38,005 nt of DNA from Caldimonas manganoxidans ATCC BAA-369 (GTDB taxonomy: Bacteria; Pseudomonadota; Gammaproteobacteria; Burkholderiales; Burkholderiaceae_C). Shown one piece after another: positions 9,873-35,652 of the stretch (its first letter is position 1; each line of letters opens with the position of its first letter). The stretch lies in the NCBI RefSeq assembly GCF_000381125.1, contig NZ_KB905957.1, positions 1 to 38,005 of the forward strand, in the 5' to 3' direction. A model generated the notes under the pieces. That model ran no database searches and had not been told where the DNA came from. It saw nothing but the letters and a program-made list of their open reading frames with translations. A program made the position numbers and the translations under genes.

Positions 9873-9882
9873 GGTGGGCGAG

Positions 9883-15416: not shown

Positions 15417-15443
15417 TTGCTGTCAATATAGCACGGAGGCCGC

Positions 15444-16765: not shown

Positions 16766-16772
16766 GCGAAAA

Positions 16773-16829: not shown

Positions 16830-16846
16830 CCCATTGACCAGGCCCG

Positions 16847-16940: not shown

Positions 16941-16942
16941 GC

Positions 16943-18224: not shown

Positions 18225-18230
18225 ACCGAC

Positions 18231-19142: not shown

Positions 19143-19152
19143 GGCTAAAGCG

Positions 19153-19380: not shown

Positions 19381-19383
19381 GTC

Positions 19384-19800: not shown

Positions 19801-20291
19801 GCGCGGCCTTTGACACGCGCGCCGTGCTGGCCGCCGTGGCCGCACGGATCAAGGCGACGGTCACCGGCGTCGAGGTGGGGCTGACGCCCGAGCGTGCGAG
19901 CAGCTGGCGACTCAACCACCCGCGCGCCGCGCTGCTGGTGGACTACCGCGGCAGCCGCTACGGCCAGCCGCAGCGCATGGGGCTGGTCGCGCAGCCGCGC
20001 ACGGTGCAGATCGGCGTCAACGTCGTCGCCCGCACGCTCAACGACGCCTATGGCGCGGTGGCGCTGGTGGATGCCGTGCGCGCGGCCCTCTTGGGCTGGA
20101 CGCCGCCGCACTGCAAGGCACTTGCGGCCGCCTCCGACCGCTTCGTGGCGGAGGAAGGGGGCCTGTGGTTTTACGAGATCGTCTTCGAGGCCGAGACGCT
20201 GGCCATCGAAGACCGGGAATCCGCCGCGCTGCCCGTCTTGACGCGCGGCAATGCCGACTATGGCTTCGAGACGGAGGACATCACGCCATGA
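19797..20291 (+). CDS. Tail terminator-like gp37 (DUF1834)
   Basis: 164 residues of the Gp37/DUF1834 family: FDTRAVLAAVAARIKATVTG, NHPRAALLVDYRGSRYGQPQ, MGLVAQPRTVQIGVNVVART near 60-80, then VALVDAVRAALLGWTPPHC and WFYEIVFEAETLA. Position and fold type suggest a neck or tail-terminator role. Start in ATGA overlap. Confidence 0.85.
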   Translation: MSAAFDTRAVLAAVAARIKATVTGVEVGLTPERASSWRLNHPRAALLVDYRGSRYGQPQRMGLVAQPRTVQIGVNVVARTLNDAYGAVALVDAVRAALLGWTPPHCKALAAASDRFVAEEGGLWFYEIVFEAETLAIEDRESAALPVLTRGNADYGFETEDITP

Positions 20292-20482
20292 CCACTTATA
20301 TCTACAGCGGCCCGATGAGCGCGGCCACCCTGCCCGACGGGCGCGAGGTGGTGCTCATCGACAGCCAGACCGTGGAGCTGCCCGAGGACAACGCCTGGGT
20401 GCAGACGCTCGTTGCGCGCGGGCACCTCGCCCCCGTGCCGACTGCGCCCGCGCCCAAGAAAACCGCCCAGAAAGGAGACTGA
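20288..20482 (+). CDS. Small gp38-like protein
   Basis: 64 residues starting in an overlap with the gp37-like stop. It begins MTTYIYSGPMSAATLPDGRE and continues VVLIDSQTVELPEDNAWVQT, with a Lys/Pro tail. This is the Mu gp38 slot before the sheath gene: small, mostly beta. Function unknown. Confidence 0.65.
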   Translation: MTTYIYSGPMSAATLPDGREVVLIDSQTVELPEDNAWVQTLVARGHLAPVPTAPAPKKTAQKGD

Positions 20483-20485
20483 ACC

Positions 20486-21922: not shown

Positions 21923-21933
21923 GGAGCTAAGAC

Positions 21934-22458
21934 ATGGCCAACATCCTGATTCACCGCATCACCAATGCGAACATCTACATGGACGGCGCAAACCTTCTTG
22001 GTCGTGCCGAGGAAATCGAGCTGCCGCAGGTCAAAGTCAAAATGGCCGAGCACAAGGCGCTGGGCATGGTCGGCACCATCCGCGCCTTTTCCGGCATCGA
22101 GGCGCTGGAAGGCAAGATCAAGTGGGCGAGCTTCTACGCCGATGTGCTCAAAAAGGCTGCCAACCCCTTCAAGACCGTGCAGCTTCAGGTGCGCGGCTCG
22201 CTGGAGGGCTGGAACACTCCCGCGGGTCGCAACACCGAAAAGCCCGTGGTGGCCGTAATGCAAGTTCTGTTCAAAAACTTCCCGCTCGGGCAGTTCAAGC
22301 AGCACGAGAACGTCGAGATCACCACCGAGTTCGACGCCTGGATGGTCAAGCTCACCGCCGAAGGGCAGGACATCCTGGAGATCGATGTGGCGGCCAACAT
22401 CTACAAGGCGGGCGGCGTCGATATGCTGGCGAACTACCGCGCCAACATCGGAGGCTGA
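21934..22458 (+). CDS. FII: Major tail tube protein (P2 FII type)
   Basis: 174 residues, the inner tube around which the sheath contracts. FII features: HRITNANIYMDGANLLGRAE, ELPQVKVKMAEHKALGMVGT near 30-50, SGIEALEGKIKWASFYADVL, and the C-terminal LTAEGQDILEIDVAANIYKA. This is distinctly P2-like and not the Mu M tube. Confidence 0.93.
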   Translation: MANILIHRITNANIYMDGANLLGRAEEIELPQVKVKMAEHKALGMVGTIRAFSGIEALEGKIKWASFYADVLKKAANPFKTVQLQVRGSLEGWNTPAGRNTEKPVVAVMQVLFKNFPLGQFKQHENVEITTEFDAWMVKLTAEGQDILEIDVAANIYKAGGVDMLANYRANIGG

Positions 22459-22463
22459 GCTAG

Positions 22464-22706
22464 ATGGACATCGACCTCAAATACCCGATCACCACCGGCG
22501 ACGGCAAGAAGGTCTCGCGCCTTCAGCTTCGCCGCGCCACCGTGGGCGACTTGAAGGCCGCGCAGCGCGTCTCGGACAAGGCCGAGGAGCAGGAAATCGC
22601 GCTGATCGCGCGGCTCACGGGCCTCGTGCCGGAAGACGTGGAGCTCTTGGACCTGGCCGACTTCAAGCGGCTGCAGGATTCCTTTCGCGCGGCTCTCGAC
22701 GGCTGA
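22464..22706 (+). CDS. E: Tail assembly chaperone E
   Basis: 80 residues. Phage tail assembly chaperone (P2 E / Mu gp41 class): DIDLKYPITTGDGKKVSRLQ, LRRATVGDLKAAQRVSDKAE, EIALIARLTGLVPEDVELLD and LADFKRLQDSF. It keeps the tape measure protein soluble during tube assembly. Its 3' end overlaps a second frame encoding a GpE domain (see 22683-22842). Confidence 0.85.
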   Translation: MDIDLKYPITTGDGKKVSRLQLRRATVGDLKAAQRVSDKAEEQEIALIARLTGLVPEDVELLDLADFKRLQDSFRAALDG

Positions 22707-22842
22707 CATCGAGGCGGGCGTGGAGCTGCTGGCGCTGGCCTACCGCTGGCCGCCGTCGGAGGCCGAGCGCATGGACATCGACGAGTTCGTGCGCTGGAGC
22801 AAAAGGGCGGACGAGGCGCTCAAGGCGCGCGCCGGAACATGA
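22683..22842 (+). CDS. GpE-type frameshift extension of the tail chaperone
   Basis: In the frame one base ahead of E (+1, equivalently -2), reading from the TTT-C at 22683-22686 gives ARLSTADIEAGVELLALAYR followed by WPPSEAERMDIDEFVRWSKR and ADEALKARAGT, stop at 22842. ADIEA...YRWPPSE...FVRW is the P2 GpE domain. There is no start codon before 22771, so it is most likely joined to E by programmed frameshifting, as in P2 (E+E', -1) and Mu (-2). UUU-C would allow a +1 slip of tRNA-Phe to UUC. Confidence 0.7.
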
Positions 22843-22975
22843 CAGAGGCCGCGCCGACCGCGCCCGGCACGAGAAGCGCCAGCAGCGCCCCGGCGGGCAC
22901 CAGCGCCCACCACGGCAACCAGGCGGCCAGTGGCACGGCGGCAAGCGCGATGAGGATGACGGCAACGAGAGTCAT
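22820..22975 (-). CDS. Possible small two-helix membrane protein
   Basis: A 51-residue minus-strand ORF starting MTLVAVILIALAAVPLAAWL, then PWWALVPAGALLALLVPG, ending MFRRAP. Two hydrophobic helices with a Trp-Pro turn and a basic C-terminus look like a small membrane protein, such as those that block superinfecting DNA. There is no clear ribosome site. It fills the otherwise empty 144-bp gap before the tape measure gene. It could also be an artefact of GC-rich sequence. Confidence 0.35.
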   Translation of the reverse strand: MTLVAVILIALAAVPLAAWLPWWALVPAGALLALLVPGAVGAASVMFRRAP

Positions 22976-22986
22976 GACGCAATAGT

Positions 22987-25644
22987 ATGGCGCAGGAATT
23001 CTTTCTCGGCATCAAGCTGGGCGCGATCGGGGCGTCCGCCGTCGGTGCGGCGCTCGGCTCCGCCCAGTCCGCCATGACGCGCCTGGGCGATGTGGCCAAG
23101 AGCCTCACCCGCGAGCAGGAGCGCCTGGGCGAGGCCGTCCGTCGCCACATGGGCACGCTTGCGCCCAAGACGCTGGCCAGCCTCAACCGCGACTACGAGC
23201 GCCTGGGCCAGACCATCGACGCCGTGCGCGCGCGACAAGAGAAGCTCGGCGCGGCCATGAGCCGCCGTCAGGCGCTGGCCGACCAGCGGGGGCGCATCGG
23301 CGGCGAGATCATGGGCACCTATGCCACCGCCTTGGCCGTGGGGGCGCCGGTGATCGGCGCGGTGCGGGAGGCCGCTGGGTTCGGCGATGCGGTCAAAGAC
23401 ATCGCCATCGTCGGCGAACTCACCGCCGCCGAGGAAAAAAGGCTCGGCGCGAGTTTGCGCGCCGTGGCCTTGAACGTGAACCAGACCGCCGAGGACATGG
23501 CGCGCGGGGTGGGCCTCTTGATCGCCAACGGCATGGAGGCCAAGGCCGCCGCGCAGCAGGCCCAGTTGCTCGGGCGCTTTACCACCGCGACGCGGGCCTC
23601 GTTTGAGGACGCGGCGAAGATGATGGTGAGCTTCTCGCAACTGGGCGTGTCCGCCGACCAGATGGCGCTGGCCTTTTCTCAGGCGGCCAAGGCGGGCAAG
23701 CTCGGCAGCTTCGAAGTGCGCGACATGGCGCGCTGGTTCCCGCAACTGGGCGGCTATCTCAAGGCCATTGGCATCACCGGCAACGAGGCGGTGGTCAACA
23801 TGGCCAGCCGCTTGCAGGTGGCGATGAAGACGGCGGGCAGCACGGATGAAGCGGCCAACAACTTCCGCAACTTCCTGGCCAAGCTCACCAGCCCGGACAC
23901 GGTCAAGGACTTCGAGAAGCTGGGCCTGGACTTGCAAGGCTCGATGCTCAGGCTCGCGCGGCAGGGGCTGGACCCGATCGAGGGCGCGGTAGGGATGATC
24001 CTCCAGAAGGTCGGCCAGCGTGCACCGGAGGTCACGCGCGAACTGGAAGCGCTCTCCAAAGAACTGGCCTCCATCAAAGACCCGGCCGAGCGAGCCGCCG
24101 AGATGGAGCGCCGCCGCGCGATGATCGAGGCGCTCGGCCAGCGCGCGGGCCTGGGGCAGATGTTCCAGGACATGCAGGCGGTGGGCTACTTGCTGGCCGA
24201 AATCCAGAACCGGGATGATTTGAAGCGCATCCGCGCGGAGGTCGCTACTGGAAAAAATGCCGACGGCCAGATGAGTCTGGACGCCGACTTTGCCAAGCGG
24301 CTGGAATCGCCCGTCGAGCAGATGAAGGCGATGCGCATCGCCATGTCCGACATGGCGATGGCGGTGGGCGACGCGCTCTTGCCCGCGCTCAACGACATCC
24401 TTCAGGCCGTCAAGCCCGTGGTGCTGGGGCTGGCCAACTGGGCCAAGGAACACCCGGCGCTCATCAAGGGCGCGGTGGGGTTTGCGCTGGGGCTGGCCAC
24501 GGTCAAGGCGGCCACGCTCTCGCTCGGGTGGGGGCTCAACTTCTTCGTCAAATCGCCCATCGCCAGCTTGCAGGTGGCCTGGCAGTCGCTCGCCTCGCGG
24601 GCGCTGATGGCGCGTGCGGCGCTGCTGGCAGGGTCCGGCGGCTTCAAGGCCGTGGCGCTGGCCGCCGGGTTGTCGGAGGGGTTGATCGGCAAGCTGGGCG
24701 CGGGGCTCGTCAGGTTCCGCGCCGTGGCGGTGGCGGCGCTCACCGGCGCGGGCCGGGCGCTGATGTGGCTGGGGCGCGCCGTCATGCTCAACCCCATCGG
24801 GCTGGCGCTGACGGCGATTGCCGGGGCGGCGTATCTGGTCTGGCGCAACTGGGATGTGATCGGCCCGAAGCTGGCCGCCGTGTGGCAGCAGATGAAGGCC
24901 GGATTCGTCACGGCCTGGGCTTGGCTCAAGGGCCTGCCGGACCAGATGCTGGCGCTCGGGCGCGAGATCGTGGCGGGCCTGATCGACGGCATCAAGGCGC
25001 GAATCGCCGCTGCGGGCGAGGCCGTCACGTCCTTGGGCGAGACGATCAAGAGCAAGTTCAAGGGGTGGCTGGGCATCCGCTCGCCCAGCCGCGTGTTCGC
25101 CGAGTTCGGGCAGATGATCGGCCTGGGCGCGGCGCAGGGCATTGCGGGCATGGGCGGGGCAGTGGCGCGCGCCACGGCGGGGCTGGCGCTGGCGGCGACA
25201 GGGGCGTTCAACCCAGTGCTGGCCGCGCCGGTGCCGCTGGCGGCCGCCGTCATGCAGCGCGTCACGCAAGCAGTGCAGCCCATCACCCTTCCGACCGTGC
25301 CCGACGCAGTGCGCACGATCCGCGAGCGGCTCGTGCCCGCCGATCTGCCGCAGCCGCCCGAGGCGATCCGCGCCGTGCACGACGAAGCGCTGGCCGCCGG
25401 TGTGCCCGCATTGCAGGCGACGCTTGCCGCAAAGCCCGCGGGCGACGACCGGCCATCGGCTGAAGCGGCCGCGCCGATGACCATCACCTTCGCGCCGGTG
25501 ATCCATGTGACCGCCGCACATGGCGGCGACGTCAAGGCGCAGGTGCAGGAAGCGGCGCGCCTGTCGTTTGCCGAGTTCGAGCGCTTGATGCGCCGCTGGC
25601 AGGATGAGCGGCGTCGGCTCTCTCCGATGGGAGGCCTGTCATGA
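22987..25644 (+). CDS. T(P2): Tail tape measure protein (P2 T type)
   Basis: 885 residues, setting tail length; 885 residues corresponds to a tail of roughly 130 nm by the usual 1.5 angstrom per residue rule. N-terminal coiled coil (AMTRLGDVAKSLTREQERLG, LNRDYERLGQTIDAVRARQE). The TP901-type core includes GVGLLIANGMEAKAAAQQAQ, ASRLQVAMKTAGSTDEAANN and FRNFLAKLTSPDTVKDFEKL. Hydrophobic central segments occupy about 490-625 (GLANWAKEHPALIKGAVGFA, LNPIGLALTAIAGAAYLVWR), and GIRSPSRVFAEFGQMIGLGA is near 695-715. It is preceded by the chaperone pair, as expected. Confidence 0.93.
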   Translation: MAQEFFLGIKLGAIGASAVGAALGSAQSAMTRLGDVAKSLTREQERLGEAVRRHMGTLAPKTLASLNRDYERLGQTIDAVRARQEKLGAAMSRRQALADQRGRIGGEIMGTYATALAVGAPVIGAVREAAGFGDAVKDIAIVGELTAAEEKRLGASLRAVALNVNQTAEDMARGVGLLIANGMEAKAAAQQAQLLGRFTTATRASFEDAAKMMVSFSQLGVSADQMALAFSQAAKAGKLGSFEVRDMARWFPQLGGYLKAIGITGNEAVVNMASRLQVAMKTAGSTDEAANNFRNFLAKLTSPDTVKDFEKLGLDLQGSMLRLARQGLDPIEGAVGMILQKVGQRAPEVTRELEALSKELASIKDPAERAAEMERRRAMIEALGQRAGLGQMFQDMQAVGYLLAEIQNRDDLKRIRAEVATGKNADGQMSLDADFAKRLESPVEQMKAMRIAMSDMAMAVGDALLPALNDILQAVKPVVLGLANWAKEHPALIKGAVGFALGLATVKAATLSLGWGLNFFVKSPIASLQVAWQSLASRALMARAALLAGSGGFKAVALAAGLSEGLIGKLGAGLVRFRAVAVAALTGAGRALMWLGRAVMLNPIGLALTAIAGAAYLVWRNWDVIGPKLAAVWQQMKAGFVTAWAWLKGLPDQMLALGREIVAGLIDGIKARIAAAGEAVTSLGETIKSKFKGWLGIRSPSRVFAEFGQMIGLGAAQGIAGMGGAVARATAGLALAATGAFNPVLAAPVPLAAAVMQRVTQAVQPITLPTVPDAVRTIRERLVPADLPQPPEAIRAVHDEALAAGVPALQATLAAKPAGDDRPSAEAAAPMTITFAPVIHVTAAHGGDVKAQVQEAARLSFAEFERLMRRWQDERRRLSPMGGLS

Positions 25645-26543
25645 GCCTGTACGCGGTGCTCGGCGAAACCGAGCTGGACATCATCGCCTGGCTCGACGGC
25701 TTCGAGGCACGCTTTGCTGCCGAGTGGCCCGAGCAGGGACTGATCGGAAGGAAGAGCCTGATCCAGCACACCGGCTTTGCGCCGGACGAGGTGCGGCTGC
25801 GCGTGCTGCTGCACAGCCAGTGGTGCGACCCGGGTGCGGAGCTGGCCAAGCTCAAGGCGCGGCTGGACGATGCGCAGCCGCTGGCCTTCGTGCTCGGCAC
25901 CGGCGAATACCGGGGCCGCTTCGTGCTCACCGAGGTGTCGGCGGTCACGCGCCAGACCGATGGTTACGGGGCCTTGATCGCGTTGGAGGCCGACATCACG
26001 CTCAAGGAGAGCATCGGCGACCCGGCCGAGCCCGTGCCGCCTGCGGTGCTCTTGCCCGGCTGGCAGGCGCCGGTGACGCAAGCCGGGGAGGCGATGGACG
26101 TGCCGGTGGAGACGGTGTTTGCCGAGTCCCCTGCGGGAGATGCTGCCGAGGCCATCGGCGCGGCCATTGGCGCGATGGGGCAGGCGGCGCAGGTGGCTTC
26201 TGGCCTGTCCAGCCTCGTGGCGGTAGCGCAGTCGGATCCGCTCGCCGCCGTGTCGCTCGCCGCGCCGCTGGCATCGTCCATCGGCGCGGTGGCCGAAGCC
26301 TTGCCGGTGGAGGCGGTAGCGGGTATCCAGGCCATCAGTAGCGCGGCGGGGGCCTTGTCCATCGCCAGAGGCGATCTCGAATCCGCCGCCGCTTGGCTGG
26401 CTTCGCCTGCACCGGGCGCGATCTTGGCGCGCGCGGGGTATGCGCTTTCGCACACCCGCGATGCGCTGGAGGTGCTCGATTCGGCGCGCGGCGTCTTCGC
26501 ACAGGCAGCGGCCGCGATTGCCACCCGGAGCTTTGCAGCATGA
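25641..26543 (+). CDS. U: Tail protein U (P2 gpU) with Ala-rich C-terminal extension
   Basis: 300 residues. The first 130 match P2 gpU: MSLYAVLGETELDIIAWLDG, LIGRKSLIQHTGFAPDEVRL, FVLGTGEYRGRFVLTEVSAV and ALIALEADITLKES. The remaining 160 residues are Ala/Ser-rich hydrophobic helix (AIGAAIGAMGQAAQVASGLS and similar), as in other GpU proteins of temperate phages. It joins tube to baseplate hub. It overlaps neighbours on both sides by four bases. Confidence 0.9.
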   Translation: MSLYAVLGETELDIIAWLDGFEARFAAEWPEQGLIGRKSLIQHTGFAPDEVRLRVLLHSQWCDPGAELAKLKARLDDAQPLAFVLGTGEYRGRFVLTEVSAVTRQTDGYGALIALEADITLKESIGDPAEPVPPAVLLPGWQAPVTQAGEAMDVPVETVFAESPAGDAAEAIGAAIGAMGQAAQVASGLSSLVAVAQSDPLAAVSLAAPLASSIGAVAEALPVEAVAGIQAISSAAGALSIARGDLESAAAWLASPAPGAILARAGYALSHTRDALEVLDSARGVFAQAAAAIATRSFAA

Positions 26544-26758
26544 AGGCGCTGATCCACATCACCCGCGAGGGCGAGCGCTGGGACGGCATCGCCTGGGCCT
26601 ACTACCGCGACGCGCGGCAGATGCAGCGCTTGCTGGAGGCCAACCCGCACCTGGCCGCCGCGCCCACGCTGCCGTCGGGCCAGAAGGTCGTCGTGCCGCT
26701 TGTGACGCGTGATCCAGCCGCCACCGACCCGGCGAGGCTGCCGCCATGGCGACGCTGA
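26540..26758 (+). CDS. X: Tail protein X (LysM-like)
   Basis: 72 residues, ATG 26540 overlapping the U stop. P2 gpX/LysM pattern: HITREGERWDGIAWAYYRDA, MQRLLEANPHLAAAPTLPSG and QKVVVPL. LysM-type folds at the tail tip may bind glycan; in P2 gpX acts in tail assembly. It overlaps D by 13 bp. Confidence 0.88.
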   Translation: MKALIHITREGERWDGIAWAYYRDARQMQRLLEANPHLAAAPTLPSGQKVVVPLVTRDPAATDPARLPPWRR

Positions 26759-27759
26759 CCCACCCGCGCGCCACGCTCAGCTACAACGGGCGCGACGTGA
26801 CCGCCGACCTCTCGCCCTACCTGATGGAGCTGAGCTACACCGACCGCCTCACCGGCGAGGCCGATGGGCTGGACGTGCTGCTGGCCAGCCCTTCCGCGCT
26901 CGATACCCGGTGGCTTTCCGACTGGTACCCGGACAAGGGCGTCACGCTCGCCGCCACACTGGGCTACGCGGGCGGGCCGCAGGTGGCCAGCGGCGAGATG
27001 GAGGTGGACGAGATCGAGATCGAGGCACCCCCTTTGCAGGTGCGCATCCGCGCCATTGCCGCGGGCCTGACCCGCCGGGCGCGCACGCGCATCGGCAGGG
27101 CTTACGAGGGCAAGAAGCTCTCGCAGATCGTGGACGAGGTGGCGGCGCGCCTGGGCGCGCGGCGCGCGGGCGCCATCGACCCCGACCCGCTGTTGGATCG
27201 CGTCACGCAGTATCAGGAAGGCGACTGGGCCTTTTTACACCGGCTGATGCGCGAATACGGCCACACCGTCAAGCTCGCCGACAACAACCGCACGCTGGCC
27301 GTGGCGCGGCCCAAGACGCTCGCCGAGCAGGAGCCGGTGGCCACGCTCACGCCGGGGCTCATCACCGCCTGGCGCTACCGCGACAAGATCACCGACGTGC
27401 CGCAGAAGGTGGCCGTGAAACACCACGACCCGGCCAAGGGCGGGGTGACGGTGGCCGAGAAGGCCGACGGCGGCGAGCATGCCGAGGACGTGCGGCTGAT
27501 CCACCGCCGCGCCCGCTCGCCGGAGGATGCCGCCGCGCAGGCCGAAGGCGAGGCCGAGCGCCATGCGATCGACAAGACGGCGCTGACGCTTGCGCTGCCC
27601 GGCGACCCGGCCGTCGTCGCGGGCAGCGTCATCCAACTTGCTGGATTTTCTCGGCTCGACGGGCGCTATCTCGTGACCGAGGCGCGGCACAGCATTTCCC
27701 GCTCCGGCTACACGCTGGAGATCGACACCCGGAGGTTGCCCGATGCTGGAAACGCATGA
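26746..27759 (+). CDS. D: Baseplate hub protein D (P2 gpD)
   Basis: 337 residues of the P2 gpD/phage late control D family, part of the hub that carries the spike: LSYNGRDVTADLSPYLMELS, YTDRLTGEADGLDVLLASP, WLSDWYPDKGVTLAATLGYA, then EGDWAFLHRLMREYGHTVKL near 155-175 and GSVIQLAGFSRLDGRYLVTE near 300. Despite the old name, it is structural. Confidence 0.92.
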   Translation: MATLTHPRATLSYNGRDVTADLSPYLMELSYTDRLTGEADGLDVLLASPSALDTRWLSDWYPDKGVTLAATLGYAGGPQVASGEMEVDEIEIEAPPLQVRIRAIAAGLTRRARTRIGRAYEGKKLSQIVDEVAARLGARRAGAIDPDPLLDRVTQYQEGDWAFLHRLMREYGHTVKLADNNRTLAVARPKTLAEQEPVATLTPGLITAWRYRDKITDVPQKVAVKHHDPAKGGVTVAEKADGGEHAEDVRLIHRRARSPEDAAAQAEGEAERHAIDKTALTLALPGDPAVVAGSVIQLAGFSRLDGRYLVTEARHSISRSGYTLEIDTRRLPDAGNA

Positions 27760-28306
27760 CGAAGCGGGCGTCACGCTCCGCTGGGGTTTCGTGACCGCCA
27801 TCGACGAGACGAATCACACAGTGCGCGTGTGGCTGCCCGACCTCGAGCTCGAAACCTGGTGGCTGCAAGTGCCCACCGCTGGCAGCCGGTGCGATAAGCA
27901 CTACGCGCTGCCGGACATCGACGAGCACGTGGTCTGCCTGCTGGACCGCCGCGGCGAGGTGGGTGTGGTGTTGGGCAGCGTGTTCGGCCAGCGCGATGCG
28001 GTGCCGGTGACGGGCGGCGCGGACCGGCACCACATCCGCTACCGGGACGGCACCACGATCGACTACGACCGGCGCACGCACCGGCTGGCGCTCTCGGTGC
28101 GCGGCCCGGTGGAGCTGGTGGCCGACGGGCCGGTGACGGTGGCCGCGCCCTCCGTCACCCTCGACAGCCCGCAGGTGACGGTGACGGGGCATTTGACCGC
28201 GCAAAGCGGCCTTCAAGTCAACGGCCCGGTGGCGGTGGACGGCAGCATCGATGCCACGGGCAGCATCATGGACGCGGGCGGCAACTCGAACCATCACAGT
28301 CACTGA
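27743..28306 (+). CDS. V: Baseplate spike protein V (P2 gpV)
   Basis: 187 residues. OB-fold N-terminus (LRWGFVTAIDETNHTVRVWL, WLQVPTAGSRCDKHYALPDI, EHVVCLLDRRGEVGVVLGSV), then a repetitive beta-helix (VAAPSVTLDSPQVTVTGHLT). The C-terminus ends NHHSH, an HxH motif like that binding an iron ion at the tip of P2 gpV spikes. The spike pierces the outer membrane on sheath contraction. It overlaps D by 17 bp and closes this transcription unit. Confidence 0.92.
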   Translation: MLETHDEAGVTLRWGFVTAIDETNHTVRVWLPDLELETWWLQVPTAGSRCDKHYALPDIDEHVVCLLDRRGEVGVVLGSVFGQRDAVPVTGGADRHHIRYRDGTTIDYDRRTHRLALSVRGPVELVADGPVTVAAPSVTLDSPQVTVTGHLTAQSGLQVNGPVAVDGSIDATGSIMDAGGNSNHHSH

Positions 28307-28310
28307 ACCC

Positions 28311-28361
28311 TGAACGCTTTCGCGCTGCCCTTGAGCGCGGCGGCGCGCGACCATCGCCGCC
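28311..28361 (+). promoter_or_regulatory. Late promoter candidate 3 (baseplate/fibre operon)
   Basis: TGAACGCTTTCGCGCT at 28311-28326 is identical to the box at 8118. GACCAT follows 38 bases in (28349-28354) and the ATG 51 bases in (28362). It starts 4 bp after the V stop in the only gap of the tail region. Mu's PP promoter lies in a comparable place before tail genes. Confidence 0.6.
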
Positions 28362-28724
28362 ATGAGCACGATGGCCGCCACCCTGCCGCGCCGCGCCCAC
28401 TGGCAGCTTGCCATGGGCGGGACGGGCTACGCCGAGGCGCTGGACGACCTGCGCCAGGCGATCGCCATCATCCTGCTCACCCGCAAGGGCAGCGACCCGC
28501 TGCGCCCCGCGTTTGGCTCGGACATCTGGCGTTACATCGATCACCCGATCGACCGCGCGCGGCCGCACCTGGTGCGCGAGGTGGTCGAGGCCATCCGCCG
28601 CTGGGAGCCCAGGGTCAAGATCGAGCGCGTGACGGTCGCGCCCGATGAGGCGCACGCCATCCGCATCGGCATCCACTTCACCACGCCGGACGGGCAGCCG
28701 GTATCCATGACGGTGACGCCATGA
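28362..28724 (+). CDS. W: Baseplate protein W (gp25-like)
   Basis: 120 residues, baseplate wedge of the GPW/gp25 family: AEALDDLRQAIAIILLTRKG, LRPAFGSDIWRYIDHPIDRA near 50-70, HLVREVVEAIRRWEPRVKIE. ATG 28362 matches the +51 position of the late-promoter unit; no Shine-Dalgarno is visible before it. It overlaps J by four bases. Confidence 0.9.
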   Translation: MSTMAATLPRRAHWQLAMGGTGYAEALDDLRQAIAIILLTRKGSDPLRPAFGSDIWRYIDHPIDRARPHLVREVVEAIRRWEPRVKIERVTVAPDEAHAIRIGIHFTTPDGQPVSMTVTP

Positions 28725-29545
28725 GCGAGCTGCCGAAGATCGTCCCCGACGACCCGGCGGCCATCGCCGCCGAGCTCAAGGCGGCCTACGAGGCGGCCAC
28801 GGGCCGCACCGTCTATCCGGGGCAGGCCGAGCAGCTCTTGATCGACCTGTGCGCCTACCGCGAGTCGCTGTGCCGCGCCGCGATCAATGAGACCGCGCGG
28901 CAGAACCTGGTTGCTTTCGCGCGCGCGCCGATGCTGGACTACCTGGGCGAACTCGTCGGGGTGGCCCGCCTGCCGGGCGAGGACGACGAGCGGCTGCGCG
29001 AGCGCATCCGGCTCGCGCCCGAGCATTTCTCGGTGGCCGGGCCGCGCCTGGCGTACCGCTACCACGCGATGAGCGCGGACGCCGCCGTGCTGGACGTGGC
29101 CGTGCGCTCACCCGAGCCGGGCGTGGTGGTGCTGCATCCGCTCGCCTCGATCGACGGCGCACCGGCGATGCCCACCGCCACCCTCAAGGCCCGCGTGCTC
29201 GCCGCCGCATCCGCCGAGGACGCGCGCCCGCTGTGCGACACGGTGCAGGTCGAAGACCCGGTGGACCGGCCCTACACCGTGAGCGCGCGCATCGTCGTCG
29301 ATGCCGGGCGCGATGCCGAGACCGTGCGGCAAGCTGCGCTCGACGCCGTGTCCGCATTCTGCGCGACGAAATCCCGAAGCCTTGGCCAAGACATCGCCCG
29401 CTCGGCGCTGATCGCCGCGCTCCACGCGGCGGGGGTCAAGCGCGTGACGCTGGACGCGCCCGCCGCCGACATCGTGGCCGACGTGCACCACTGGACGCAC
29501 GCCACCGCGATCTCCGTGACCGTCGAGGGGGTCGAAGATGCCTGA
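28721..29545 (+). CDS. J: Baseplate protein J
   Basis: 274 residues, P2 gpJ family baseplate wedge: IAAELKAAYEAATGRTVYPG, LLIDLCAYRESLCRAAINET, ARQNLVAFARAPMLDYLGEL, VARLPGEDDERLRERIRLAP, then a mixed C-terminus ending HHWTHATAISVTVEGVEDA. W-J-I order is that of P2. Confidence 0.92.
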   Translation: MSELPKIVPDDPAAIAAELKAAYEAATGRTVYPGQAEQLLIDLCAYRESLCRAAINETARQNLVAFARAPMLDYLGELVGVARLPGEDDERLRERIRLAPEHFSVAGPRLAYRYHAMSADAAVLDVAVRSPEPGVVVLHPLASIDGAPAMPTATLKARVLAAASAEDARPLCDTVQVEDPVDRPYTVSARIVVDAGRDAETVRQAALDAVSAFCATKSRSLGQDIARSALIAALHAAGVKRVTLDAPAADIVADVHHWTHATAISVTVEGVEDA

Positions 29546-30575
29546 TCGCAGCTGGTACCCCGACGTGATCGCCGCGGACGCGCGGCTCTCCGCGCTCGCC
29601 GACCTGTCGGCGCGGCTCGAAGCCCTGCCGGTGGACAAGGCGCTGACGCACTTGGTGGACGCCGTGGACGCGCGGCTGCTGCCGCATCTGGCGCACGGCT
29701 GGCACGTGACCGACCTCGAAGGCTGGCGGCTGGCCGACACGCCCGAGAAGCGCCGCGCCATCCTGCGCCGGGCGATTGCGCTTCACCGCAAGAAGGGCAC
29801 GCCGTGGGCGGTGAAGGAGGCGCTGCGCGCGGCCGGGCTTGGGGCGCTGTCGCGCCTGATCGAGGGGCGCGCGATGCGCCGCTACGACGGCGCGGTCTAT
29901 GCCGACGGCAGCGATATCTACGGCGGCCACACCTGGGCCGAATGGCGGCTGGAGGCCGACCTGGGCGAGACCGCCGGGCTGGATGCGGGTATTGCCGCCG
30001 CCGCCGAAGCCATCGCCCGCGAGTGGGCGCCGGTCTCGCGCCACCTGACGGCGCTCGCCTGGCGCGCGGACGTGTCCGAGCGCATCGACAGCCGCGACGC
30101 TTCGGCCGCCGCCGCCGCGTGGAGCGGCGAAAGCCTGCGCCCCTGGCGGCGCTACTACGACGGCGCGCACCGCTACGACCAAGGGCTGCTGCTGCGCTAC
30201 GACGGCGGCACACAAGCCGACGGCAGCCGCCGCTACCAGGGCTGGGCCGCCAATGACGCCCACTGGCGCGCTGGCGCTCCCGAGTCCGACACCACGCTCG
30301 CGCTCGCCTGGGATGACGCCGACCGCCAGCAGGCGCTGCCGCGCTACGACGGCGCCACGCAGGCCGACGGCGGCACCGACTACGGCGACGCCGCGCCGGT
30401 GGCGGAAGACGCCGTGATGCCCATCACCGTCACGCGCCTGGTGCGCTACGACGGACGCCACCGCTACGGCGCGGACAACCGCTACGACGGTGCGGGCCGC
30501 TTCGACGGCAGCCGCCGCTACCTTGCCGGGCGCATCGCCTCGGGCGACGAGATCACCTACCTGGAGGCCGCTTGA
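29538..30575 (+). CDS. I(P2): Tail protein I with C-terminal RYDG repeats
   Basis: 345 residues. The first 190 are P2 gpI: ARLEALPVDKALTHLVDAVD, LLPHLAHGWHVTDLEGWRLA, RRAILRRAIALHRKKGTPWA, VKEALRAAGLG, and YGGHTWAEWRLEADLGETAG. The C-terminal 150 residues carry at least six Tyr-Asp-Gly motifs (RYDGAVYADGS, RYDGGTQADGSRRYQG, RYDGATQADGG, RYDGRHRYG, RYDGAGRFDGSRRYLAG). These are probably a repetitive adaptor that docks the fibre. It attaches the tail fibre to the baseplate. Confidence 0.88.
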   Translation: MPDRSWYPDVIAADARLSALADLSARLEALPVDKALTHLVDAVDARLLPHLAHGWHVTDLEGWRLADTPEKRRAILRRAIALHRKKGTPWAVKEALRAAGLGALSRLIEGRAMRRYDGAVYADGSDIYGGHTWAEWRLEADLGETAGLDAGIAAAAEAIAREWAPVSRHLTALAWRADVSERIDSRDASAAAAAWSGESLRPWRRYYDGAHRYDQGLLLRYDGGTQADGSRRYQGWAANDAHWRAGAPESDTTLALAWDDADRQQALPRYDGATQADGGTDYGDAAPVAEDAVMPITVTRLVRYDGRHRYGADNRYDGAGRFDGSRRYLAGRIASGDEITYLEAA

Positions 30576-30970
30576 TGACCGCCTTGCTCATCCTCACCGC
30601 CGCGCTCTTCGCCGGGCTGGCGCTGGCGCTTGTCTTTGCCACGCTCACCGCCCGCTGGCGCATCGCCGTGGACCTCACGCCCATCGAGCACGCGCTCATC
30701 GCCGCCGCCGTGCAGGTCGGCTGGGGCCTGACTGCGGGCGACTGGATCGCCGGTGGTGTGATGGGCGTGCTGCTCTTCGTCGGCCGCGAGCACGCGCAGG
30801 CCGAGTACCGCTACATCAACGCCCACGGCGGCAGCCGCTATGCCACGCCGCGCGAGCCTGCCATTGGCTGCCTGCACCCGCGCTACTGGAGCACCGGCAG
30901 CGTGCTCGACATCGTAGTGCCCGCCGCCGTCTGCCTTGCCATCGGAGTGATTGCCCATGCTGCTGTCTGA
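30575..30970 (+). CDS. Membrane protein inside the tail operon
   Basis: 131 residues; ATG 30575 overlaps the tail I stop (TGATG). Hydrophobic helices at about 1-22 (TALLILTAALFAGLALALVF), 37-70 (ALIAAAVQVGWGL, WIAGGVMGVLLFVG) and 112-131 (VLDIVVPAAVCLAIGVIAHA). A soluble segment between them reads REHAQAEYRYINAHGGSRYA. An integral membrane protein is unusual between tail protein I and fibre genes. It could be a holin or a superinfection-exclusion protein, but no family is recognised. Confidence 0.6.
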   Translation: MTALLILTAALFAGLALALVFATLTARWRIAVDLTPIEHALIAAAVQVGWGLTAGDWIAGGVMGVLLFVGREHAQAEYRYINAHGGSRYATPREPAIGCLHPRYWSTGSVLDIVVPAAVCLAIGVIAHAAV

Positions 30971-31400
30971 CACCGCCGCCCTGCGCGGCCGCTTCCTGCT
31001 CGACATCCGGCGTGCCCGCGACGGCGCGCTGATCGAGCGCTTCGAGGACGCCAACCTCATCGTCAACGGCGCGAAAGACCAGCTCGCGCGCCTGGTGGCG
31101 GGCGACACCGCCAGCCGCCACATCACCCACATCGGCTTTGGCGTGGGCACGGCGGCTGCCGCGCCGACCAACACCGGCCTCACCGGCGCGTTCTGGAAGC
31201 CGATCGCCAGCGTGAGCTACCCCGCCACCGGGCAGGTGGCCTTTGCCTGGGCGCTGGGCGCGGGCGAAGCCGACGGGATGGCCATCACCGAGTTCGGCCT
31301 GCGCACGGCGGGCGGCGTGCTCTTCGCGCGCAAGGTGCGCAACCCCATCCACAAATCCGACGACCTCACGCTCTCGGGCGTGTGGACGCTGATCTTCTGA
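30957..31400 (+). CDS. Phage tail accessory protein
   Basis: 147 residues from ATG 30957 (GGAGTG upstream). Beta-rich with RGRFLLDIRRARDGALIERF, LIVNGAKDQLARLVAGDTAS, HITHIGFGVGTAAAAPTNTG, then VAFAWALGAGEADGMAITEF and a typical ALFARKVRNPIHKSDDL-like end (VLFARKVRNPIHKSDDLTLS). Proteins with this pattern are found beside tail fibres in P2/Mu-like phages, probably as collar or fibre-docking modules. Confidence 0.7.
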   Translation: MLLSDTAALRGRFLLDIRRARDGALIERFEDANLIVNGAKDQLARLVAGDTASRHITHIGFGVGTAAAAPTNTGLTGAFWKPIASVSYPATGQVAFAWALGAGEADGMAITEFGLRTAGGVLFARKVRNPIHKSDDLTLSGVWTLIF

Positions 31401-31416
31401 CGAAAGGAGTCTGCCG

Positions 31417-32349
31417 ATGGCAAATCTCAATGAAACCGCCGCCTGGGAGTCCGGCGTCTACCGCATCGAGACGACCGACCCCATCCTGGGCGGCGAGACC
31501 GGCACCGCCAACATCCAGGCCAAGCAGCTGGCCAACCGCACGCTCTGGCTGAAAGCCCGCGCCGACCAGGTGGACGCCGCCGCCGCAGGCTACGGCAGCT
31601 TGCAAGCGCGCCTGGCCACCCTGCAATCGCAGGTCGAGGCGGTGGGTGCGGACATGCAAAACGTCGAACAAGCCGCCGTGCTCGAAGCGCTGATGCAGGC
31701 GCGCACGGCGCTGGGCATGATCGATGCGCTGCGCATCGGGCCCTGGCAGCAGCAGGGCGGGGTGACCATCGCCAACCGGGGCGTGGTCGGCGGCTGCGTG
31801 GTGAGCAAATCCACCACCGCCGCGCGCAACCTCAACATCACGCCGGGCCGTGTCTTTGCCAACGGCCGCACCTACGTCGTGCTCGAAGGCACCAACGCCG
31901 CGAGCGTCCCGCCCAACACCGGCAGCGGTGCGGTCACCGTCTCGGCCTACCTCTACCCGCACAGCGCGGGCGATTGGCGGCTGGCCGTCACCGCCATCGG
32001 CCAGAGCGTGCCAGCCGGCGGCATGGAGATCTACCGCCTGACCCTCCCCGCGAACAGTACCGACGCCACCGACCCGAACCTGACCGGCGTCACGCTGACC
32101 GACGTTCGCCGCATCGAAGCCGACTGGCCCGAGCTGATGAGCAGCCCGCCCGAGGCGCAGGTGCTCTTGCCGCGCGCCTTGCGCAGCAGCGGCTACCGCC
32201 TGCACCTGGAGCCGGTCGCCTGGAGCGGCCCGCAAGACCGCCCCGAGGTGCAGGTGGCCAGCCGCGCCAGCAACGGCTTCACCTTGCGCCTCATCAGCGC
32301 CCACGACGCGGTGACGCTGCGCTGGGGCCTGCAAAAGCTCGACGACTGA
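31417..32349 (+). CDS. Tail fibre protein
   Basis: 310 residues, AAAGGAG before ATG 31417. The N-terminus (MANLNETAAWESGVYRIETT, DPILGGETGTANIQAKQLAN, RTLWLKARADQVD) is the conserved baseplate-attachment region of phage tail-fibre/collar proteins. A short coiled coil follows (SLQARLATLQSQVEAVGADM), then a beta-rich shaft. It is shorter than a stand-alone receptor-binding fibre, and the variable lectin-type protein at 32715 probably sits on its tip. Confidence 0.8.
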   Translation: MANLNETAAWESGVYRIETTDPILGGETGTANIQAKQLANRTLWLKARADQVDAAAAGYGSLQARLATLQSQVEAVGADMQNVEQAAVLEALMQARTALGMIDALRIGPWQQQGGVTIANRGVVGGCVVSKSTTAARNLNITPGRVFANGRTYVVLEGTNAASVPPNTGSGAVTVSAYLYPHSAGDWRLAVTAIGQSVPAGGMEIYRLTLPANSTDATDPNLTGVTLTDVRRIEADWPELMSSPPEAQVLLPRALRSSGYRLHLEPVAWSGPQDRPEVQVASRASNGFTLRLISAHDAVTLRWGLQKLDD

Positions 32350-32367
32350 TCCACCAGGAGACTCACC

Positions 32368-32691
32368 ATGCCCATGATCACCCTCATGTCCCCCGGCCAG
32401 CGCGTGGCCGCCTTAGCCATCGACGGCAGCCATATCGCCATCGGTGGCCTCACCCTCGACTGTGCCGGGCACCAGCGCGACGAAGCTGTCACGCTGGAAG
32501 TGCGCGGCACTGCGTCCGCCCCCACGCTCGGCGGCGACGGCCCGTATCTGGCCACCATTCGCATCCCGGCGCGGCAATACACCGAGCAGGCGGGCGCGCC
32601 CGACCCGATGACCGGCGTGCCCACCCTGGAGCGCGTGCCGCTGCCGCTCGACCCCGATGCCGTCGAGATCATTCTCTGGCCAGCCGCCTGA
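32368..32691 (+). CDS. Small protein between fibre and variable protein
   Basis: 107 residues, ACCAGGAGACTCACC before the ATG. Beta-rich: MPMITLMSPGQRVAALAIDG, SHIAIGGLTLDCAGHQRDEA, VTLEVRGTASAPTLGGDG. No family recognised. Its place directly before a DGR target suggests a linker between fibre shaft and variable tip, or a chaperone. Confidence 0.55.
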   Translation: MPMITLMSPGQRVAALAIDGSHIAIGGLTLDCAGHQRDEAVTLEVRGTASAPTLGGDGPYLATIRIPARQYTEQAGAPDPMTGVPTLERVPLPLDPDAVEIILWPAA

Positions 32692-32714
32692 CCTGACCCA
32701 CAAGGAGACCGAAC

Positions 32715-33824
32715 ATGCCCACCGTATTCGTGAAAGACGACCTGCGCGCCGCTGTCGAAGCCGCCACCGGCGGCCTGGTCAGCGTCCACTACACCCAGCA
32801 AGGCCAGCCGACCTTCATGCGCTGGATTCCCAAATTCAACCTCGAAGACCTCGGCGCCGACTACGGCACCGGCGTGCACCCCGCGTTCGTGGTCGATGGC
32901 GTGACCCGCGACGGCATCTGGATCGGGGTCTATCCCGGCATCGTGCGCAATGGCGAGCTGCTCTCGCTGCCCGGTGTCGCGCCCACCGTGAGCCAACCGT
33001 ACACCTCTTTCGTCACCGCCGCGCGCGCGGCCGGGCCGGGCTTTCACGTGATGACCAATGCAGAATGGTCGGCCATTGCCCTGTGGTGCGCCCGCAATGG
33101 CTACCAGCCGCGCGGCAACACCAACTGGGGCCGCGCGCACGACGCCCCGTGGGAGACCGGCACCCGCGTGGACGGCGGCACGCCAGGTAGCGCCAGCGGC
33201 AACGGCAACACTCTCACCGGCTCCGGCCCCGTCTCGTGGCGGCACGACAACAGCCCCGCCGGTATCGCCGACCTGGTGGGCAACATCTGGGAGTTCACGC
33301 CCGGCGTGCGGTTGGTCGAAGGCGAAATCCAGATTCTGCCCAACAACAACGCCGCCAGCGCCGCGCTGTTCGACGACACCGCCCCTTGGCAGGCGATCCG
33401 CGCCTCCGACGGCGCGCTGGTGGCCCCCGGCACGGCGGGCACGCTCAAATACGACAGCACTGTGGCCTACAGCGACAACGGCGTCGTCAACGACCTCGGG
33501 GCATTCCAAATCGATGACGTGGTGGACTTCCGCAACGGCCCCAGCGGCGACGACAGCAACAGCTACGACAACAACAGCATTGCGTTCTCGTCGCTGGCAG
33601 CCGACACCGGCATCACCGTGCCCGCCATCCTGCGCGCCCTGTGCCTCGCGCCCGGCAGCTTGAGTCTCAAGGGTCGCATCTGGATGCGCAACCACGGCAA
33701 GCGCTACCCGCTCCGCGGCGGCTCCCGCAGCTACGGCGCCTACGCGGGCCTCGGCGCGCTCAACTTGTACAATCCGGCGTCGAACGCGTACAGCGACGTC
33801 GGTGCCCGCCTCGCGAAGGTGTGA
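32715..33824 (+). CDS. DGR variable protein (C-type lectin / FGE-sulfatase fold)
   Basis: 369 residues, AAGGAGACCGAAC before ATG 32715. Residues about 110-220 show the formylglycine-generating-enzyme type C-lectin fold: HVMTNAEWSAIALWCARNGY, QPRGNTNWGRAH, GIADLVGNIWEFTPGVRLVE. The C-terminus (334-367) is the variable region, RGGSRSYGAYAGLGALNLYN and onward. Seven residues there differ from the template copy: S339, Y340, Y343, Y352, Y359, D361, V362. Such folds display diversified residues on a rigid face, as Mtd does in phage BPP-1. Likely the receptor-binding tip of the tail fibre. Confidence 0.9.
   Translation: MPTVFVKDDLRAAVEAATGGLVSVHYTQQGQPTFMRWIPKFNLEDLGADYGTGVHPAFVVDGVTRDGIWIGVYPGIVRNGELLSLPGVAPTVSQPYTSFVTAARAAGPGFHVMTNAEWSAIALWCARNGYQPRGNTNWGRAHDAPWETGTRVDGGTPGSASGNGNTLTGSGPVSWRHDNSPAGIADLVGNIWEFTPGVRLVEGEIQILPNNNAASAALFDDTAPWQAIRASDGALVAPGTAGTLKYDSTVAYSDNGVVNDLGAFQIDDVVDFRNGPSGDDSNSYDNNSIAFSSLAADTGITVPAILRALCLAPGSLSLKGRIWMRNHGKRYPLRGGSRSYGAYAGLGALNLYNPASNAYSDVGARLAKV
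33716..33817 (+). repeat. DGR variable repeat (VR)
   Basis: 102 bp at the 3' end of the variable-protein gene, matching TR (34276-34377) at 95 positions with a constant 560-bp offset. The differences are at 33730, 33732, 33741, 33768, 33789, 33795 and 33798; every one faces an adenine in TR (four A-to-T, three A-to-G). The 3' end, GGTGCCCGCCTCGCGAA, is identical to TR and is the likely start site of mutagenic homing. Confidence 0.95.
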
Positions 33825-33830
33825 TGCCTG

Positions 33831-33848
33831 ATGACCGTGAAGGGTCAT
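33831..33848. promoter_or_regulatory. Hairpin 13 bp downstream of VR
   Basis: ATGACC (33831-33836) and GGTCAT (33843-33848) form a 6-bp stem with a GTGAAG loop, 13 bp after VR ends. BPP-1 and other DGRs have a DNA hairpin or cruciform in this position that raises homing efficiency. Here it coincides with the first codons of avd. Confidence 0.55.
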
Positions 33849-34250
33849 GACCTCCAGCCCGCGCCCGAGGCGCGGGCGCTCTCCCGTCAGGGGCAGGCGG
33901 TGCGCTACGCGCCCTATCAGGCGCTCATCGAGCGCATCGAGGAGCTCGACGCCTACAGCCATCAGGTGATGCACCAGTGGCCCAAGATCGAGCGCCATGT
34001 GCTCGCGGCGGAGGTGCGCGCCACGCTCCTGCGCATCCGGCGTATCTGTGCTATCGCATGGAAGCGGCGACAAAAGTCGGCGGCGCTCTTCGATCTTGAC
34101 GTCGAGATCGAGGTGCTGCGGCACCTGGTGCGCAAAGCGTGGCGGCTGCGCTACATCACCGCGCAGCGGCTGGAGGTCTGGACCCGTCACATCGACGAAA
34201 TCGGCCGCATGGTCGGCGCCTGGATCAAGCATGCAGGCGCTGCGCCATGA
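33831..34250 (+). CDS. avd: DGR accessory variability determinant (Avd)
   Basis: 139 residues, a basic four-helix bundle typical of Avd: QALIERIEELDAYSHQVMHQ, IERHVLAAEVRATLLRIRRI, LFDLDVEIEVLRHLVRKAWR and LRYITAQRLEVWTRHIDEIG. Avd forms a pentameric ring that binds the reverse transcriptase and TR RNA and is needed for cDNA synthesis. ATG 33831 begins 7 bp after the variable gene stop; a modest AGGTG at its 5' side falls at the end of VR. The stop overlaps an ATG (34247) that opens a frame through TR into the RT. Confidence 0.9.
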   Translation: MTVKGHDLQPAPEARALSRQGQAVRYAPYQALIERIEELDAYSHQVMHQWPKIERHVLAAEVRATLLRIRRICAIAWKRRQKSAALFDLDVEIEVLRHLVRKAWRLRYITAQRLEVWTRHIDEIGRMVGAWIKHAGAAP

Positions 34251-34275
34251 GGCAGATAGGGGTGCGGGCGTGCTA

Positions 34276-34377
34276 CGGCGGCTCCCGCAACAACGGCGCC
34301 AACGCGGGCCTCGGCGCGCTCAACTTGAACAATCCGGCGTCGAACGCGAACAGCAACATCGGTGCCCGCCTCGCGAA
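34276..34377 (+). repeat. DGR template repeat (TR)
   Basis: 102-bp template with 22 adenines, most in AAC codons as judged in the VR frame (AAC cannot mutate at A to a stop). Copying with A-specific errors yields cDNA that replaces VR. It lies between avd and RT, with about 150 nt of further transcript before the RT start. The functional TR RNA probably includes sequence on both sides (about 34250-34525). TR is open in the same frame as RT. Confidence 0.95.
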
Positions 34378-34525
34378 CGATACAGGCGGCCAGAAGCCGG
34401 GCCTGCCACGGCAGTCCGGCCAGTGCCCATCCTTCGGCGCCCGCATCCTGAGCATTCCGCTCAAAGATCAACAGCCGCGCGCGGCCAGTAGCTCGTCGAC
34501 CGTGGCGCGCGGTGCCCGCTTCGAT

Positions 34526-35596
34526 ATGCCAAAAACGCACACCGGACTATTCGACCGCATCATCGCTTTTGACAATCTCGTGGCCGCCTACGAGGAGGCG
34601 CGTCGCGGCAAGCGCTACACCCCGGAAGCGCTCGCCTTCGCTACGCGCTGGGAAGAGCAGCTCATCAACACCCATGAGCACCTCGTCTGGCACTCGTGGC
34701 ACCCGGGGAGTCCGCGCGTCTTCACCGTCAAGGACCCCAAGCGCCGCGACATCACCGCGCCGCCCTTTGCCGACCGCATCGTCCATCACGCCCTGGTGCG
34801 GGTGGTGGAGCCGCTCTTCGAGCGCCGCTTCATCGCCGACAGCTACGCCTGTCGCACTGGCAAGGGGTCGCACGCCGCCGTCGCCAGAGCGCAGGACTTC
34901 CTGCGCCGCGCCAAGCGCAACTGGGGCGACGGCATCTACCTCGTGCACGCCGACGTGAGGAGTTACTTCGCGAGCATCGACCACGACGTGGCGATCGCCT
35001 GCATCCGTCGCGTCATCGCCGATGAGGATGTGCTGTGGCTGTGGCGGAGAATCATGCACGGCTACGGCTTCGATGGCGGCGTCGGCCTGCCGGTCGGCGC
35101 GCTGACCAGCCAGCTCGTCGCCAACATCGTGCTCGACCAGGTGGATCATGCGATCAAGGACGACGCCGGCGAGCCGTACTACCTGCGCTACATGGACGAC
35201 ATGGTCGCCGTCTGCCGCGACAAAGCGCACGCCAGGCAGACGCTAGAGCGCATCGCCGATGCCTGTGCGCGGCTCAAGCTGCGCCTCAACCCCAAGAGTC
35301 GCTACGAGCCATGGCAGCGCGGTCTGGACTTCTGCGGCTACCGCGTCTGGCCCACCCACGTCCTGCCGCGCAAGCGCAACACCAAGCGCTGGCGGCAACG
35401 CCTGCGCCGCCTGGTCGCGGACTACGCCGCCGGGCGCGCGACGCTGGCCGACGCCCGCCAGATGATCGCGAGCTGCATCGCTTACTACAACCACGCCAGC
35501 GCGCGGCATACCCTTGGTGGCCTCCTTTCGCAGGCAGCACTACGCCGCGGAAAATCCACTGCTCGCATTCCGCGAGACGAAAGTCGTCACCTGTAA
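34526..35596 (+). CDS. rt: DGR reverse transcriptase
   Basis: 356 residues counted from ATG 34526. Hallmarks in order: HADVRSYFASID (motif A, catalytic D143), the DGR-specific LPVGALTSQ at 188-196 (GxxxSQ where other RTs have QGxxxSP), YMDD at 222-225, RLKLRLNPKS and LDFCGYRVWPTHV. With Avd it copies TR RNA and misincorporates opposite adenines. No strong ribosome site precedes 34526; an upstream in-frame ATG at 34247 overlapping the avd stop could give a 449-residue form that includes translated TR. The stop codon lies inside the outermost transposase site, 56 bp from the phage end. Confidence 0.95.
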   Translation: MPKTHTGLFDRIIAFDNLVAAYEEARRGKRYTPEALAFATRWEEQLINTHEHLVWHSWHPGSPRVFTVKDPKRRDITAPPFADRIVHHALVRVVEPLFERRFIADSYACRTGKGSHAAVARAQDFLRRAKRNWGDGIYLVHADVRSYFASIDHDVAIACIRRVIADEDVLWLWRRIMHGYGFDGGVGLPVGALTSQLVANIVLDQVDHAIKDDAGEPYYLRYMDDMVAVCRDKAHARQTLERIADACARLKLRLNPKSRYEPWQRGLDFCGYRVWPTHVLPRKRNTKRWRQRLRRLVADYAAGRATLADARQMIASCIAYYNHASARHTLGGLLSQAALRRGKSTARIPRDESRHL

Positions 35597-35652
35597 TTCG
35601 TGCCGGTCGCCTGTAATGTGTGCAGGCGTCTCATTTAATTTGTGCCTGCCCA
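35590..35652 (-). other. Prophage right end with three transposase-type sites
   Basis: Read inward on the minus strand, GCAC-N2-ATTA occurs three times: GCACAAATTA, GCACACATTA and GCACGAATTA, spaced 22 and 20 bp. The outermost lies eight bases from the terminal TGGGCAGG. This matches the tight R1-R2-R3 array of MuA sites at Mu's right end. The RT stop (35594-35596) is inside R3. Confidence 0.8.

Follow-up and report, generated by a model that had tools for sequence, protein, structure and literature searches.

A probably functional diversity-generating retroelement in a Mu-like prophage of Caldimonas manganoxidans

Diversity-generating retroelements in transposable phages

Diversity-generating retroelements (DGRs) are already known from Mu-like and other transposable phages; a paper of 2013 reportedly presented Mu-like phages of Firmicutes, in its title, as new instances of such retroelements. 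The locus described here is a new, well-formed example and no new class of system. It lies in a stretch of 38,005 nucleotides, hereafter the window, that covers positions 1 to 38,005 of contig NZ_KB905957.1 (assembly GCF_000381125.1) of Caldimonas manganoxidans ATCC BAA-369. From the list of open reading frames (ORFs) and their translations, positions 32715-35596 hold, all on the + strand, a gene for a variable protein (VP) ending in a variable repeat (VR), the gene avd (accessory variability determinant), a template repeat (TR) and a gene for a reverse transcriptase (RT). The cassette is a real, probably functional DGR in a Mu-like prophage. It is very probably a complete DGR of the Bordetella phage BPP-1 type, forming the last module of the prophage and working as follows. 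By analogy with BPP-1, the TR would be transcribed, and RT and Avd would copy its RNA into cDNA while misreading template adenines. The cDNA would then take the place of the VR at the 3' end of the VP gene, with the bases common to VR and TR and a GC hairpin past the VR as guides. With VP on the virion tail, variation in the VR would change what the phage binds.

Several described systems resemble the window. In the available portions of the papers on Thermus aquaticus Y51MC23 (PMC4605624, PMC6328139), prophage 2 is described with many genes annotated as Mu-like, the order VP(VR)-avd-TR-RT, an RT near the terminal prophage boundary and a variable protein, TaqVP, that is homologous to the window VP. 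The T. aquaticus host is distant, however, and its VP different in detail, and the likeness rests on VP and layout rather than on the RT. Phage BPP-1 shares the order VP(VR)-avd-TR-RT and a hairpin past the VR, with nearly the same distances between VR and TR (556 in BPP-1, 560 in the window) and between TR and RT (144 and 148 nt). In contrast to the window, its RT is 36% identical, its hairpin lies at +4 with the loop GAAA, and no phrog_310 (Mu-type) transposase was found in it.

The Chromohalobacter phage YPCBV-1 is an isolated phage called Mu-like in the accessible text of its report (PMC9769972). It encodes a transposase, its last genes are target, Avd and RT, and its repeats follow the adenine rule, with 14/14 mismatches at TR adenines. 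Its target lacks clear similarity to VP (E 0.053), though, its RT is 37% identical and its hairpin loop is GGCA. Bacillus phage BalMu-1 likewise has a Mu-type transposase, an RT near the right end, a target related to VP (E 4e-39) and TR/VR mismatches of which 10/11 fall at adenines; it differs in carrying lysis genes after the RT, which is 39% identical. Pseudomonas phage Bise encodes a VP 53% identical to that of the window, an Avd-like protein, an RT and a transposase, and its TR and VR differ at adenines only (9/9). Unlike in the window, the Bise RT is 32% identical, a small reverse-strand ORF separates avd from RT, and downstream of the DGR, at the right end, lies a DNA adenine methylase gene (L070, 9352-10176). 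Mu has a DNA modification gene at its right end, which the position of this methylase recalls. A literature search for phage Bise returned no paper. Finally, the consulted parts of two papers on the hankyphage (PMC6199706, PMC12135933) describe a transposable phage with a DGR whose VR diversity at adenines was measured. The hankyphage, by contrast, infects Bacteroides and carries its VR in a protein of >2,000 residues, and it is likened to the window by description and not by sequence.

YPCBV-1, BalMu-1, vB-Vv-ZX4290 and Bise each combine a DGR with a match to a Mu-type transposase, which in BalMu-1 and ZX4290 spans stop codons. Among the 20 records searched, 9 gave a phrog_310 transposase match and BPP-1 gave none; of the other records without a match many are fragments, but one is a near-complete genome (that of L010).

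The retroelement core and its repeats

A preliminary description, drawn from the letters alone, had proposed a lectin-fold variable protein with VR, Avd, TR and a DGR-type RT in succession and in one orientation, RT motifs GxxxSQ and YMDD, and 102 bp shared by TR and VR. The observation was confirmed by the analyses below, the lectin fold being supported by homology. The VR (33716..33817) and the TR (34276..34377), both on the + strand, form a direct repeat of 102 bp with a spacing of 560. They are identical at 95/102 positions. The TR contains 22 adenines, and all seven mismatches (four A to T and three A to G) fall on them, while the 80 other positions are identical in 80/80 cases (hypergeometric P about 9e-6). 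Most TR adenines (20/22) lie in eleven codons, nine AAY, one AGC and one ATC, from which a coding capacity of about 15^9 x 16 = 6e11 stop-free protein variants is calculated. When the TR was searched against the 3.53-Mb C. manganoxidans assembly, five matches were obtained: the TR, the VR and three of 18-29 nt (E 0.27-0.92). The three short matches are probably chance, and the assembly appears to hold no convincing further VR target. Features of the initiation of mutagenic homing sites IMH and IMH* were sought in the VR/TR alignment, and its 3' end has neither a GC-only 14-mer nor a mismatch block; the last 19 bp are the same in both repeats, and 14/19 are G or C.

The same TR/VR scan was applied to related loci (numbered with the prefix L). 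Of 62 loci it covered 57, the C. manganoxidans genome's own entries (L001-L005) being set aside, and it detected a pair at 37/57. The yield was 28/32 for loci found with the RT in phages, genome contigs and viral contigs (misses at L013, L036, L037 and L041), 1/2 for loci from the search of the host's family (L015 missed), 6/21 for loci found with VP and 2/2 for loci from the window itself (L014, L017). As a control, group II intron and retron loci gave an adenine-type pair in 0/18 cases. L009 and L016 denote one and the same contig. At L027 (4727-4838), a single TR matches two VRs at offsets -518 and -1572, and one template may serve two targets there.

The RT gene (34526..35596, + strand, 356 aa) encodes the motif LPVG at residue 188, running on as ALTSQ, which fits GxxxSQ, and YMDD at residue 222. 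The program-called ORF begins at a GTG at 34139 and reads through the TR; homology to RTs begins at the ATG at 34526. Translation of the TR as part of the RT was considered and finds no support outside a single clade with GC-rich DNA. At 6/25 loci (the window, L018, L019, L020, L022 and L009) the TR can be read without stops in the frame of the RT; at the remaining loci it is in frame with stops (5/25) or out of frame (14/25, among them L024 without stops).

The RT matches phrog_1423 (E 1.4e-126). Its best match in the PDB is 8ub7_A (E 9.4e-48), an entry labelled as reverse transcriptase with Avd that we take to be the BPP-1 complex, followed by a group II RT (E 3.7e-23). The window RT clusters, in an RT tree of 37 members from which L049 and L050 were left out, with 20 DGR RTs (support 95/94), each from a locus with a detected TR/VR pair. 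Separate from these are nine group II RTs (97/96) and seven retron RTs (100/100), all from the host's family; 1/9 and 3/7 of them, respectively, score below the cut-off of their own model. Could the enzyme nevertheless be a group II intron, retron or defence RT that lies beside an incidental repeat? It does cross-match group II, retron and defence-associated RT (DRT) models below cut-off, as well as 82 PADLOC families. Against curated models it reached 130.5 of 300 bits for group II and, for the one matched retron model with a cited cut-off, 49.8 of 235 bits. The best PADLOC family was a generic RT model (E 6.6e-41) and was not taken as a sign of defence; no PADLOC family matched VP or Avd. 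A group II intron or retron RT was ruled out by the scores below cut-off, the PDB ranking and the tree, and the position in the DGR clade, the adenine rule and the adjacent Avd contradict all three identities, so that such an enzyme is scarcely conceivable here. In the host's family the RT is sporadic (3/399 genomes at E <= 1e-60, C. manganoxidans included).

An Avd protein accompanies many DGRs, though not all of them; here the avd gene (33831..34250, + strand) encodes 139 aa. Its product scores above two curated cut-offs, with 101.7 bits for NF033474 (cut-off 80) and 79.7 bits for PF22296 (cut-off 40), and matches phrog_3206 (E 2.5e-35). An Rfam scan of positions 31000-38005 gave 0 matches at gathering scores.

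Variation among relatives and the hairpin past the VR

The DGR of this Mu-like prophage is clean and complete, and it has relatives whose differences are almost confined to the VR. Between L020 and L021, 12/102 VR positions differ, ten of them at TR adenines, and 0/2,436 positions differ elsewhere: 800 of the target gene before the VR, 434 of the gap, the 102 of the TR and 1,100 after the TR are all identical. Between L029 and L030, 17/102 VR positions differ, all at TR adenines, and 8/2,413 elsewhere. The VR is identical in the pairs L009/L023 and L029/L031. As far as identity tells, L009 and L023, which agree over all stretches compared, are the same prophage in two collections; these near-identical rows were kept, as were L020 and L021. 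Compared with L018 and L019, nonsynonymous and synonymous divergence (dN/dS) was 0.19/1.0 for the RT and 0.21/0.7-1.2 for Avd. For VP without its last 35 codons, compared with L042, L043 and L045, dN was 0.19-0.21 and dS 0.73-0.83. A dS near 1 is close to saturation, which makes the ratios rough; with dN well below dS, the RT, Avd and the VP body are judged from their sequences to be under purifying selection.

A likely target-site element follows the VR. At 33857..33877, within the avd reading frame and 39 bp past the VR, a perfect 9-bp GC stem closes the loop CGA (p 0.005 from 200 mononucleotide shuffles); the best stem after the TR has 4 bp. Stems of at least 7 bp follow the VR in 18/31 loci and the TR in 4/31. 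Under a stricter rule applied to 39 loci, 18 had GRNA loops, 9 CGA-type loops, 3 other loops and 9 none. The loops of the CGA type (CGA, CGAA or CGAC) belong to the window, L009, L018, L020-L023, L049 and L050; L019 has a CGA hairpin with one stem base changed and was counted under other loops. Four of these, the window, L018, L009 and L020, make up a single clade of the RT tree (100/100); L021-L023 closely copy L020 and L009, and L049 and L050 come next in RT similarity. When the three stem types found in the window, in L020 and in L049 are compared, 5/9 pairs are changed on both sides and all nine pairings are retained. The avd peptide over the hairpin and its reading phase vary between sub-lineages; the avd frame picked for L050 in one comparison is probably wrong, another analysis placing avd elsewhere.

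The BPP-1 hairpin is required, according to the accessible part of Guo et al. 2011; its stem sequence is free to vary, and both size and sequence of its loop matter. It is conceivable, at a strength just short of favouring it, that a burkholderial Mu-like lineage reads a changed hairpin, in which GRNA has given way to CGA, CGAA or CGAC over the first avd codons. The stem, kept by paired changes while the Avd peptide and phase differ, suggests that the shape of the DNA is selected. In this clade, RT, Avd or a host nuclease would recognise another loop than that of BPP-1. The same core would have passed between different target proteins. With about three independent stem types, the changed loop is a lead and not proof. 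An altered target-hairpin loop would offer a natural comparison for target recognition by DGRs, which is known in detail from BPP-1.

Several points weigh against a working DGR as set out above. The window loop, CGA, does not fit the GRNA consensus shown to matter in BPP-1, and at 39 bp the hairpin is farther off than the 4-34 bp given together with that consensus in the portion of Guo et al. 2011 consulted. Two of the 12 VR differences between L020 and L021 lie off TR adenines. VR variation is read from relatives only, the Caldimonas lysogen being a single assembly, and the presence of VP in the virion is deduced from sequence alone. The scan found no pair at L015 (G016:C42), which comes from the host's family and has an RT 56% identical; this locus is possibly a decayed or rearranged DGR, and decayed relatives may exist. 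A related alternative is that the DGR was once active and is now silent in this lysogen: intact, and either unexpressed or hindered by its atypical hairpin, with the VR fixed. That only 7/22 TR adenines differ in the VR would agree with this, as would the departure of the loop from GRNA. RT and Avd are open, however, and comparison with L018 and L019 shows both under purifying selection; L020 and L021, which have CGAA loops, do differ in the VR. Silence is considered quite unlikely.

Target protein and prophage

The VP gene (32715..33824, + strand) encodes 369 aa. Residues 5-367 are homologous to the crystallised TaqVP (PDB 5vf4_A, E 1.5e-115), which in the available part of the TaqVP paper has a lectin fold of the formylglycine-generating enzyme (FGE) type, its variable region lying right at the C-terminus. 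This homology supports a TaqVP-like C-type-lectin fold for VP, with the VR at its C-terminus. VP also matches phrog_2889 (E 5.7e-140), annotated as of unknown function, and phrog_5302, annotated as 'tail protein' (E 4.4e-17, best stretch residues 322-367); a Pfam search of VP gave no family. In the host's family VP was found in 1/399 genomes at E <= 1e-20, that of C. manganoxidans itself.

The closest RT relatives, L018 (76%), L019, L020, L022 and L009 (a Tepidicella xavieri contig), lack the VP of the window. In them the VR lies at the end of an open frame of 863-894 codons (L018 1693-4293; L020 1768-4353; L009 6762-9353). In these three examined cases the target of about 865 aa matches phrog_5302 over its C-terminal third (E 6e-37 to 6e-43). 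Compared with the window VP it is 45% identical over 40 residues in the VR part and otherwise shows a weak stretch, 27% over 157 residues. Phage Bise is the converse case, with a close VP (53%) and a distant RT (just 32%). Because close RTs have another target and Bise pairs a close VP with a distant RT, the mutagenic core and the target protein appear to recombine and to have been exchanged between lineages. That a single RT lineage is combined with different targets illustrates how evolution may re-aim such cassettes.

Since the VR end of VP and the target of its nearest kin match the same phrog_5302, a tail role of VP is favoured, and the tail annotation in these kin is the best indication here, at the level of sequence, of a role in host contact. 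VP is most likely located on the tail of the virion, and its variation there would alter what the phage binds; that it binds a receptor and switches tropism we infer. An active DGR could instead diversify a protein that binds no receptor, one that acts on the surface of the lysogen, binds mucus or a mate, or is enzyme-like. Consistent with such a role, phrog_2889 is annotated as of unknown function, VP homologues without a nearby DGR exist, and the accessible part of the TaqVP paper assigns TaqVP to the FGE subtype without naming a ligand. However, the VP gene comes after tail genes, the nearest RT relatives have a tail-type target, and viral DGR targets of several clades are mostly annotated as tail proteins, as far as the consulted portion of Roux et al. 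2021 goes. A non-receptor role is on balance unlikely, and a tail protein that contacts the host is preferred.

Homologues of VP were also seen outside recognisable cassettes. L048 (VP 72%) and L071 (Klebsiella phage YMC16/01/N133) gave no TR/VR pair in the stretch examined; no RT is annotated in that of L071, and the Klebsiella matches end at VP residue 349, inside the VR-coded part. Four metagenome contigs with a close VP (L043, L044, L045 and L047) stop about 50-290 bases from their match to VP, which looks as though the hypervariable repeat had interrupted the assembly.

The cassette had also been placed, in the preliminary description, in the rightmost slot of a Mu-like prophage, and the gene content and the insertion site uphold this. 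A Mu-type transposase (1133..3736, + strand) matches phrog_310 (E 1.4e-67), with only 17.3 of the 21.7 bits of the cut-off for Pfam Mu-transpos_C, and a transposition ATPase (3805..4527, + strand), presumably MuB-like, matches phrog_296 (E 7e-38). From left to right these are followed by families for endolysin, large terminase, portal and minor head protein and then for head protease, major head protein, head-tail adaptor, tail sheath, tape measure and baseplate; weak matches and families lacking a cut-off were set aside. This order indicates a Mu-like phage with a contractile tail. The second gene upstream of VP (31417..32349, + strand) encodes a tail-fibre-like protein with N-terminal matches to the tail fibre families phrog_3100 and phrog_4209.

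The host gene flanking the prophage is intact in L069, one of the eight other genomes of the genus that were searched. Compared with this intact gene, the left flank agrees exactly as far as window base 95 and the right flank from 35649 onwards, and the flanks overlap there by 10 bp, which is compatible with the 5-bp target duplication of Mu without fixing its length. The ends of the prophage were drawn at TG...CA, at 94..35652 (about 35.6 kb), and are uncertain by a few bases; its termini, compared as inverted ends, agree at 17/25 bases and are only moderately alike. The RT stop at 35596 lies 56 bp short of the right end, which in Mu is the position of com/mom. At the right end, at 35586..35646, three similar stretches of about 21 bp form ungapped direct repeats and are possible transposase-binding sites. 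The disrupted host gene (1-93 and 35653-35757, - strand) encodes a small helix-turn-helix-like regulator, whole in L069.

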